Below are positions 22,199-64,000 of a stretch of DNA of 64,000 nt, one piece after another. The notes below the pieces were generated by a model that was not told the origin of the DNA, searched no databases, and saw nothing but the letters and a program-made list of their open reading frames with translations. Position numbers and translations under genes: made by a program. Location: positions 1,098,330 through 1,162,329 of the forward strand of contig NZ_CAAHFG010000004.1 of assembly GCF_900890425.1 (NCBI RefSeq), in the 5' to 3' direction. Position 1 is the first letter of the stretch. Each line of letters opens with the position of its first letter. Source of the DNA: Pontiella desulfatans. Lineage in GTDB: Bacteria > Verrucomicrobiota > Kiritimatiellia > Kiritimatiellales > Pontiellaceae.

Positions 22199-22230
22199 GC
22201 ATGCGTTTCTTCGAGTAGCTTTGAAAAGCT

Positions 22231-22275
22231 ATGTAGTCCCGCCTTTTGGCGGCTCTGCGGACAGGCCGACTACAT
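22231..22275. repeat. REP-like palindromic repeat
   Basis: Outer arms ATGTAGTC and GACTACAT enclose an inner CCGCC-TTTT-GGCGG hairpin and CTGCGGACAG. It is located just past the 3' end of the topoisomerase gene. The layout is that of REP/MITE elements. Confidence 0.65.
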
Positions 22276-42118: not shown

Positions 42119-42311
42119 GTGACATACCATCTTCAGTTTGCTTGTGGGATAAACTTGCTTTTGGGGTCGTAGAAGCGACGCCCTCGTCGCTTGCAGTGCA
42201 GTGGCAAACGGTGAGGGCACCGCTTCTACGATTAGGACGATTCCAAAATGAAGATGGTGTCACGCATCTTGCAACGGCCGTCGAAAGATGCGTGACGCCT
42301 TGTGTGGCGTC
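42119..42311. repeat. cluster of nested and adjacent inverted repeats
   Basis: The outer pair GTGACATACCATCTTCA (42119-42135) with TGAAGATGGTGTCAC (42249-42263) encloses TCGTAGAAGCG (42167-42177) with CGCTTCTACGA (42221-42231). Next come GTCACGCATCTT (42259-42270) with AAGATGCGTGAC (42285-42296), and GACGCC (42294-42299) with GGCGTC (42306-42311). The second and third structures share bases with the first, so they compete for pairing. Confidence 0.7.
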
Positions 42312-42426: not shown

Positions 42427-43911
42427 ATGGAGATGGATATGAGACGGGTTTTTGGAGTGCTGGCCGTGGTTGTGGCGGTTGTGGCGCCTGCGTTTTCGGC
42501 GGAAAAACCAAACTTTCTGGTGATTCTGGCGGACGATCTGGGGTATCAGGATGTGGGCTTTACCGGATCGAAGGAAATTTTTACCCCGCGGCTCGACGCG
42601 CTGGCGGCGAACGGCATGGTTTGCAACAATGGCTATGTCACGCATCCGTATTGCGGACCGTCGCGGGCCGGGCTGATGTCGGGCCGCTACCAGGCGCGCT
42701 TCGGTCTCGAAATCAACATTACCTATTCGCCGTATGACCTGCATAGCGGTTTTCCGCTGACGGAAAAGACGATCGCCGAGCGGATGAAGCCGGCGGGCTA
42801 CCGCACGGGCATCATTGGCAAGTGGCACCTCGGCGCGGCGCAACCGTTCCACCCGAACAGTCGTGGATTCGACCATTTCTATGGGTTCCTTTCGGGCGGG
42901 CACTCCTATTTCCCGGAAAACACCACCACGGCCTATCCGCTGCTGCTGGAGAACGGCAATCCCCACTACAGTGCCAACGAGGGGTGCTACCTGCCGCTGA
43001 TGCGCAACAACCAGGCGGGCGAGTTCAATGAATATCTCACCACCGCGCTCAGCCGCGAAGCCGCCGGTTTCGTGACGCAGGGCGACGAGCCGTTTTTCCT
43101 CTACCTCGCCTACAACGCACCGCACGGGCCGCTTGAGGCTCCGAAAAAGACGATTGATCAATATGCACACATCAAAGACAAGCGCCGCCGGACGTATGCG
43201 GTGATGATCGATGAAATGGATCGGGGCATCGGCATGGTGGTCGATGCGCTCAAGCAATCGGGCAAGCTCGAAAACACCCTCATCTTTTTCCTTTCCGACA
43301 ACGGCGGGGTGACCTCGAAACCTGGCCACGAAAATGAAAACTATTCCAACAACGGCCCGTTCCGCAAAGGGAAGGGCAGCATGCACGAAGGCGGAAGCCA
43401 TGTGCCGTTCCTGGTTCACTGGCCCAAGGGCATCAAGAAGCCGGGAACGTTCGATGGCTTGGTGTCGTCGCTCGACATTGCGGCAACGGCGGTGGCGCTG
43501 GGTGGCGGCGACACGAGTGGCCATGCATTGGAGGGCGTGAACCTCGAACCCTATCTTTCCGGCAAGAAAAAGGGATCGCCGCACGATGCGCTCTTTTGGC
43601 GGATCAAGGACGGCGTGTCCTGGTGCGTGCGCACGCCGACCGGGAAATACCTCCAGGAAAACTGGGGCAGCGACATTGTCGGGCTATACGACATGGCGAA
43701 CGATCCCTACGAGTCGACCAACCTGATGGGCAAGGCGCCGGAAAAGCGCGCCGAGCTGGCCAAGCTTTGGAACGATTGGAATGCCGGAAACTCCGCCAAC
43801 GTTTTGCTGCAGGCCGGCGACTATCAAAAGAAGCGCCTCCAGATGTATGGGGAGCTGCACCGGGAGCTTCAGGAAAAAGCCCGCAAAACCAAACCGGTGG
43901 TGATTCAATGA
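42427..43911 (+). CDS. formylglycine-dependent sulfatase (family S1)
   Basis: 494 aa with a signal peptide (VFGVLAVVVAVVAPAFS). The start may be ATG 42427 or ATG 42439; both have a GGAG. NFLVILADDLGYQDVG contains the metal-binding Asp pair. The modified Cys is at about residue 76 in YCGPSRAGLMSGR (C-x-P-S-R). GIIGKWHLG carries the Lys and His of the active site, and FFLSDNGG the second metal site. It removes sulfate esters from a glycan in the periplasm or outside the cell and needs a formylglycine-generating or anaerobic maturase enzyme, not encoded here. First gene of a five-gene operon; its stop overlaps the GH16 start. Confidence 0.92.
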   Translation: MEMDMRRVFGVLAVVVAVVAPAFSAEKPNFLVILADDLGYQDVGFTGSKEIFTPRLDALAANGMVCNNGYVTHPYCGPSRAGLMSGRYQARFGLEINITYSPYDLHSGFPLTEKTIAERMKPAGYRTGIIGKWHLGAAQPFHPNSRGFDHFYGFLSGGHSYFPENTTTAYPLLLENGNPHYSANEGCYLPLMRNNQAGEFNEYLTTALSREAAGFVTQGDEPFFLYLAYNAPHGPLEAPKKTIDQYAHIKDKRRRTYAVMIDEMDRGIGMVVDALKQSGKLENTLIFFLSDNGGVTSKPGHENENYSNNGPFRKGKGSMHEGGSHVPFLVHWPKGIKKPGTFDGLVSSLDIAATAVALGGGDTSGHALEGVNLEPYLSGKKKGSPHDALFWRIKDGVSWCVRTPTGKYLQENWGSDIVGLYDMANDPYESTNLMGKAPEKRAELAKLWNDWNAGNSANVLLQAGDYQKKRLQMYGELHRELQEKARKTKPVVIQ

Positions 43912-44768
43912 ACACTATGATTTTCACCACGAAATACACTAAATACACGAAAGGGAAACGTCGTTCAGGTTTTCGTGTGGTTCGTGTATTTCGTGGTTTG
44001 TCCATTTGCTTGCTGGGGACGTTGTCGGTATTCGCCGCGCCGCCGGAGGGCAAGGAGTGGGAGCCATTCTGGCCGATGACCGACGAGTTCGAGGGCGAGA
44101 TCCTGAACCATAAGAAATGGTTCGATCACAACCCGACCTGGAGCGGCCGGCCGCCGACGCTGTTCCATCCGGATTGCATCGCGGTCTCCAACGGGATGCT
44201 GCACATTGCCGCGTTCGATTCGGAGGCCTCGGCCAAGCGCAACCCGCCCGCCGGGTTTACCCATGTGTCCGGGTTTGTCCGCAGCAAGCGCCGCGCGCGG
44301 TTTGGCTATTTTGAAATGCGGGCCAAGCTGATGAATTCCTCGCAGGTGAGCTGCTTCTGGCTGACCAATGCGGGGCGCGACGAGTGGTCGGAAATCGATA
44401 TTGTCGAGGTGCCGGCCGGGTTGGAAAAATATTCCAGTATCCTGCAGCCCAACGTGCACTATTTCCGTGGGCCGCACTACAACGGAACGGTGGACGACCA
44501 TATCACCGACCAAGGCTACCATGACCTCGGTTTCAACATGGCCGAGGACTTCCATGTGTATGGCATGGAGTGGTCGCCGACCTTCATCCGCTGGTATGTC
44601 GATGGAAAGCTGATCCGCGAAAAGCACAACGACAACTATTTCCAGCCGCTGGAAATGAACCTGAACGTGGAGGCCAACCAATGGTTCGGCGCATTGCCCG
44701 ACGATGCAACGCTTCCGGCAACGTACCAGATCGACTATGTCCGCGCCTGGCGGCTGAAGGAATATTAA
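43908..44768 (+). CDS. GH16 endo-galactanase (agarase/porphyranase/carrageenase type)
   Basis: 286 aa from ATG 43908, overlapping the sulfatase stop (ATGA). The catalytic motif is EIDIVE (E162, D164, E167), the E-x-D-x-x-E form found in GH16 agarases, porphyranases and kappa-carrageenases. Other family segments are [20 protein letters not shown] and [20 protein letters not shown]. It hydrolyses internal beta-1,4 bonds of sulfated galactans. The first about 35 residues ([13 protein letters not shown], then a hydrophobic stretch) are encoded by an inverted-repeat element and take the place of a normal signal peptide start. The exact substrate cannot be settled from sequence. Confidence 0.87.
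43925..43999. repeat. inverted repeat overlapping the 5' end of the GH16 gene
   Basis: Left arm ACCACGAAATACACTAA + ATACACGAAA (to 43952); right arm TTTCGTGTGG + TTCGTGTATTTCGTGGT (43971-43999). The arms match at all but three or four positions over about 28 bases. The element is translated as part of the GH16 N-terminus. Confidence 0.85.
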
Positions 44769-63813: not shown

Positions 63814-64000
63814 ATGCTCTGCCATAAATGCCCCCATCTCGATTCCATCCAACGCGGTGACTATGCTTCCACTCCCTGGAAAGATACCCCGTGCGCGAAA
63901 TGCAAACTCGGGGAGGATACCTTTTACTCCGTGCCCTTCGACGAAGAGAATCCGCCAGAACTTGGAGGGACGACCTCCATGTCGTCCTATTCTGTAGCCG
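63814..64000 (+). CDS. small Cys-rich (zinc-finger-like) protein, 3' end outside window
   Basis: 62 codons are visible. MLCHKCPHLDSIQRGDY and TPCAKCKLGEDTFY provide two C-x2-C pairs about 25 residues apart, a probable zinc-binding site. It follows the primase-helicase gene and may be another replication or regulatory gene of the island. The last visible codons lie in a REP-like repeat, so the gene may be disrupted or the repeat translated. Confidence 0.45.
   Translation, partial: MLCHKCPHLDSIQRGDYASTPWKDTPCAKCKLGEDTFYSVPFDEENPPELGGTTSMSSYSVA
63964..63987. repeat. REP-like hairpin at the window end
   Basis: GGACGAC (63968-63974) and GTCGTCC (63981-63987) flank a CTCCAT loop within GGAGGGACGACCTCCATG. 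The element may continue beyond the window. Confidence 0.5.

Follow-up and report, generated by a model that had tools for sequence, protein, structure and literature searches.

Can a short palindromic repeat become the N-terminus of a protein that is presumably exported? The question is raised by a window of 64,000 nucleotides from Pontiella desulfatans, the whole stretch of DNA analyzed here, in which the ATG (43908) of a gene for a GH16 glycoside hydrolase overlaps the TGA of an upstream sulfatase gene (ATGA) and an inverted repeat sets in 14 bases past the sulfatase stop (Table 1). The first-pass annotation had read this repeat as an insertion recruited as the N-terminus of the GH16 enzyme, and the sequence comparisons described below support this reading. 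We consider it probable that a palindromic repeat landed at a junction without any gap and was kept as the translated n-region of GH16.

Table 1. Features of the sulfatase-GH16 junction in the window and other genes with predicted repeat-encoded leaders
Feature	Location	Strand	Basis or remark
Upstream sulfatase gene	window 42427..43911	+	Pfam PF00884, E 5e-65; TGA 43909-43911
GH16 glycoside hydrolase gene, 286 aa	window 43908..44768	+	Pfam PF00722, E 9.7e-23
Predicted signal peptide, 43 aa	window 43908..44036	+	hand-made hydropathy and charge criteria
Whole match to repeat-family covariance model R1	window 43918..44006	.	88.3 bits
5' arm of inverted repeat	window 43926..43952	+	repeat search and translation; GH16 frame reads TTKYTKYTK
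Loop, 18 nt	window 43953..43970	+	repeat search
3' arm of inverted repeat	window 43971..43997	+	repeat search and translation; GH16 frame reads FRVVRVFRG
Alternative GTG start inside 3' arm	window 43977..43979	+	frame reading; putative use
L106, sulfatase	P. desulfatans		repeat-encoded leader
L118, sulfatase	P. desulfatans		repeat-encoded leader
L108, LolA-like protein	P. desulfatans		repeat-encoded leader
L185, sulfatase	P. sulfatireligans		repeat-encoded leader
L200, sulfatase	G016		repeat-encoded leader
L253, sulfatase	G013		repeat-encoded leader
L322, 755 aa	G121, another family of the phylum		repeat-encoded leader; start inside repeat

The inverted repeat announced for the GH16 start is present, and only its dimensions have to be corrected: instead of 75 nt with 28-nt arms it has an outer length of 72 nt with arms of 27 nt each, of which 24 of 27 pairs (89%) are complementary. 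The N-terminal residues that had been given for GH16 are correct on translation and in frame with the gene. The match of the covariance model R1 has an E of 4e-20 within the window, the window copy being one of the eight used for building the model, and since the repeat is palindromic this copy is also scored on the opposite strand (77.6 bits). Comparison of the eight copies indicates that the arms are conserved and made of 9-nt units and that the loop sequences differ. The gap ahead of the sulfatase gene contains two more inverted repeats, one at window 42167-42231 (28-nt arms, 82%) and one at window 42256-42299 (22-nt arms, 86%).

Further copies exist: by BLAST and covariance model the same sequence recurs at about 41 places in the genome, and therefore the window repeat is not a product of chance. 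BLAST with a 141-nt query gives 39 matches in the P. desulfatans genome, both strands counted. With a limit of E 1 the model gives at least 66 matches, which manual merging reduces to at least 41 places, at least 39 of them with E up to 0.1; these are lower bounds, as 150 of 805 candidates were scored, and a 46-bit copy at L152 that is missing from the catalogue attests to its incompleteness. Among relatives in the genus, all six that have a close orthologue of GH16 carry repeat matches, and in the phylum at least 47 of 194 genomes, P. desulfatans included, match R1 at E ≤ 1e-6, again a lower bound with 22 candidates scored per genome. The literature listings searched contained no paper on the repeat, and strings of its sequence matched only work on fish eDNA.

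In P. desulfatans, 34 of 43 inspected places are called intergenic. The 174 stretches fetched around matches hold 186 distinct copies, of which 129 have a called gene on either side; these gene pairs are co-directional in 104 cases, convergent in 10, and divergent in 15. For the placed copies the median distance is 4 nt between stop codon and element and 13.5 nt between element and ATG, values that are favored towards short gaps by seeking neighboring genes within 150 nt only. Where a gene-like frame follows downstream (136 copy-strand pairs), an in-frame ATG lies at most 75 nt past the copy in 112, at a median of 11. The usual position of the copies is therefore the gap directly ahead of the next start codon.

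Inspection of the 186 copies identified seven further ones that encode N-termini with signal-peptide-like leaders (Table 1), signal peptides being judged throughout by our rule of charge and hydropathy and the list being made partly by eye. What the first-pass annotation overlooked is that at these other genes the repeat supplies the hydrophobic core of the predicted leader as well. The 3' arm makes up all or part of the core in six of the seven, and in the eight cases including the window the repeat accounts for 56% to 87% of the leader. In L106, L108, L118, L200, and L322 just 4-7 residues separate the mature part, as cut by us, from the repeat, so that these five leaders are without any other core. 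In the window copy and in L185, where the 3' arm is read in the FRV frame, the leader has a native core; that of L253 is native in part. In the five sulfatases (L106, L118, L185, L200, and L253) the Pfam domain starts at residue 34-46 with profile position 1-2; in L106, where it starts at residue 34, 27 of the 31 residues ahead of DRPNFLL come from the repeat. The L322 protein has no Pfam match, and its leader carries a net charge of just +1 over the first 20 residues.

Only for the LolA-like case is there an orthologue at a comparable junction that lacks the repeat: L170 in G016, which shares 73% identity with the L108 protein, begins at a GTGA and has an ordinary leader (VNLSSGLRKLFCLTLLLTISAMGDQEE). 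For the L106 and the L118 sulfatase, the leaders of 12 relatives each were compared by eye, and only that of L179 bears a palindrome. In this P. sulfatireligans sulfatase (L179:1453-2940, minus strand), the n-region of the leader contains a palindrome of a third, unrelated kind, whose arms measure 24 nt. A strict rule is passed by 11 of 136 copy-strand pairs, five of which are on the by-eye list, and the others (L110, L230, L294, L314, L329, and L344) were not retained, their frames being weak or the case undecided; the window, L118, and L253 fail the rule because another ATG in frame follows at a distance of up to 75 nt, either within the mature part or where the leader ends. For cytosolic genes the start is placed past the repeat by habit, so that the count of eight exported proteins in eight cases is biased and no enrichment is claimed. 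Sulfatases are described as very numerous in these strains, with 521 and 480 (PMC7356697). Comparison with relatives suggests that recruitment of a repeat as leader occurred several times, with different repeats and for different secreted enzymes.

The leaders encoded by the repeat seem to be signal-like because of the order of its arms, hydrophilic in the 5' and hydrophobic in the 3' half. Six readings of each of 175 copies give 1050 readings, 511 of them open, with a mean hydropathy of -1.69 in the first and 1.10 in the second half, the 3' half being the more hydrophobic one in 1044. By our rule 153 of the 1050 (14.6%) are open and signal-like, compared with 0.5% for full shuffles, 7.5% for inverted repeats with shuffled arms, and 0.6% for swapped arms, controls made on a set of 177 copies in which two are counted twice owing to the overlap of L267 and L307. 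In an earlier set of 109 copies 13.3% of the readings qualify, as against 0.9% of shuffles, 1.3% of random genomic pieces, and 1.2% of artificial inverted repeats built from genomic arms. About half of the signal-like excess thus comes from being an inverted repeat whose first arm has this composition, in any base order, and the remainder from the base order. In terms of codons, the A-rich 5' arm would yield Lys, Thr, Asn, and Arg, and the complementary, T-rich 3' arm Phe, Val, Leu, and Ile; as the arms are complementary, the element would read from hydrophilic and basic to hydrophobic in either orientation, as Sec signal peptides do. The length of the loop would set the frame of the 3' arm, and with a frame of the FVC or ILC type the arm may become the core, too.

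One might object that the repeat is a selfish in-frame insertion like the palindromic elements of Rickettsia, tolerated wherever a protein is exposed and without any special link to signal peptides. Two copies agree with this, one read in frame within a B12/radical-SAM-like ORF (L121, about 2316-2404, reverse complement) and one in frame at the C-terminus of a transporter-like ORF (L130, about 2320-2406, reverse complement), both ORFs being named by eye. However, these two internal or C-terminal cases, noticed incidentally, face eight N-terminal ones, and the arm order yields signal-like readings far above the controls; we regard this objection as the most serious one and nevertheless as rather unlikely to be right.

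For GH16 itself, 28 of the 43 residues of the predicted leader are inside the R1 match and 24 inside the 72-nt core, and a plausible cleavage site after these 43 residues lies between VFA and APPEG. The earlier proposal that the repeat codes for the positively charged part of the predicted signal peptide is supported: in the window it makes up the basic n-region, and the hydrophobic core (h-region) is native. Judged from the translated gene, the repeat appears to supply most of the GH16 export signal. Between the arms and the mature part, TTG 43998, 44010, and 44022 are the only in-frame starts, and the longest leader that they could give has no basic residue at all.

Orthologues of GH16 with at least 70% identity were found in 7 of 58 genomes searched and the sulfatase-GH16 junction in six of these seven, P. 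desulfatans being included in both counts. In all six, an ATG or GTG in frame overlaps or adjoins the TGA, and the frame is free of stops up to the mature domain. The open stretch covers 95-152 nt and differs in sequence among the six genomes; in four of them (G021, G024, G016, and G013) a second frame is stop-free as well. The N-terminal sequence of the window is found in none of the other five genomes that have this junction; the shared N-terminus that would have refuted the first-pass annotation did not appear. The closest orthologue, that of P. sulfatireligans (G021, 80% identity), has an unrelated palindrome (GGAGGGGCGG...CCCCTCC) at the junction, and a palindrome similar to it is present in G016. 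Decayed relatives of the window repeat are found in G024, by the model at 20 bits, and in G027, by eye, and G013 has a two-unit variant of the repeat together with an end resembling the second palindrome, both recognized by eye. Every GH16 orthologue at this junction bears an insert, and the orthologue of G018, which lacks the sulfatase junction, has a short ordinary leader. In the GH16 leader of G016 (L013), short units of the GTCGAAGG type directly precede the palindrome and are likewise read in frame. Single-arm matches to the palindromes of the L179 leader and the G016 GH16 leader occur at window 22230-22253 and 63964-63987.

Phylogenetic analysis of the GH16 proteins was set aside (0 of 5 inner branches supported), and the tree of the upstream sulfatases was used in its place (midpoint root, 3 of 3 inner branches supported). 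It groups G021 with G013, and G016 with G024 and G027. The two kinds of palindromes do not follow this tree, and under midpoint rooting at least three insertions or replacements would be the simplest count, a number that leans on the by-eye calls.

These junctions bear on the start codon. If translation began at GTG 43977 in the 3' arm, only VRVFRG of the repeat would be protein, and the 5' arm and the loop would be leader. Such a start would yield a predicted signal peptide of normal length, still drawing on the 3' arm, and by our reading G024 has a similarly placed GTG (MFRVFSGLCMLSSVVLA); yet all six genomes keep a start codon that overlaps or adjoins the sulfatase stop, with an open frame behind it, and we think it quite improbable that the GTG is the start in use.

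Hairpins of the REP type between co-directional genes act on mRNA, and the junctions were folded and compared with dinucleotide shuffles. The window junction has a predicted energy of -39.1 kcal/mol (z -2.3), and those of G021, G024, and G016 have z values of -3.2, -1.9, and -2.8, respectively; the junctions of G027 and G013 fold no better than shuffles (z +1.1 and +1.0). That the element is nothing but such a hairpin of the operon mRNA, serving stability, attenuation, or translational coupling of sulfatase and GH16 while its protein reading is incidental, would fit these four folds and the many copies between co-directional genes, but it does not account for the frame that is open in all six genomes, G027 and G013 included, nor for leaders without any other hydrophobic core, and is the least probable of the alternatives considered. 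A hairpin role and a leader-coding role are not exclusive and can coexist.

The preferred reading, recruitment of the repeat as the n-region of GH16, can be put as follows. A non-autonomous palindromic repeat, usually residing in the few bases between co-directional genes and presumably mobile, would have landed at the sulfatase-GH16 junction. As the overlap of stop and start leaves no spare bases there, it would have ended up among the opening codons of GH16. Through the insert the reading frame would have stayed open, and the insert may have been kept for this reason and because few demands are made on the sequence of a signal peptide beyond a basic beginning and a hydrophobic core. Translated from the ATG on the sulfatase stop, it would now form most of the n-region of an enzyme destined for export, with the 3' arm in the FRV frame contributing extra basic residues and the native core remaining.

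More tentatively, and with about as much reason for doubt as for belief, the whole family might be regarded as a portable cassette for signal peptides: roughly one reading in seven is open and signal-like by our rule, a landing at a gene start could provide n-region and core, and export signals of secreted enzymes may have been replaced or created in this way repeatedly in relatives of Pontiella, with at least one further instance in a different family of the phylum. The case matters as a countable example of non-coding repeats turning into protein. It would offer a simple reason for success at signal peptides, complementary arms encoding opposite hydropathy in Sec order, and, through comparison of repeat-bearing with repeat-free orthologues, would open the origin and turnover of signal peptides to testing.

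Among known systems, the palindromic elements of Rickettsia are repeats read in frame that are scattered over proteins rather than signal peptides. The frames run open through the repeat here as well, in eight listed cases and in otherwise conserved genes; in contrast, the host differs and the eight listed copies are situated at predicted signal peptides, a comparison made by description only. REP/BIME sequences, which are associated with RAYT transposases, are many short palindromes in the gaps of operons, as are the repeats of P. desulfatans. Whereas a REP is defined as a palindrome of 20-40 nt with a GTAG or GGAG end, the repeat described here measures 72 nt and ends in ACCACGAA and TTCGTGGT. 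MITEs of the YPAL/ERIC type are marked by terminal inverted repeats in common with a transposon and by a target-site duplication; the orthologues with and without the repeat have diverged too far for such a duplication to be legible. A RAYT transposase was considered as mobilizer: among 19 loci matching PF01797 (Y1_Tnp) in the P. desulfatans genome, 17 of them over the cut-off, none holds the repeat in the fetched flanks of up to 1.5 kb. Proteins of the PF13366 (GxxExxY) type often begin with similar motifs; of their 15 matches, three loci (L144, L151, and L152) have a related repeat in their flanks, an association that is suggestive only. In all, the searches for a mobilizer at the Y1_Tnp and PF13366 loci of this genome found nothing firm.

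Coding palindromes are also described from the mitochondria of Nematomorpha, where the arms encode conserved regions of proteins (PMC6649704). Both arms of the inverted repeat encode protein there as here, and signal peptides do not figure in the account that the abstract gives (PMC6649704). For palindromes as recurrent signal peptides, the literature searched offers a single source (Delihas, 2007; PMC2759123), in which the YPAL/RU-2 repeat in YPO1552 of Yersinia is the worked example and constitutes a precedent, relatives of the protein having unrelated signal sequences; YPO2495 is likewise predicted to bear a signal sequence. YPAL/RU-2 has about 168 nt compared with about 72 nt here, the two systems being compared by description and not by repeat sequence. 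As far as that precedent is described, what is added to it here is recurrence, in eight listed cases, the presence of different repeats at one orthologous site, and a near-uniform hydropathy order that is built into the repeat itself.
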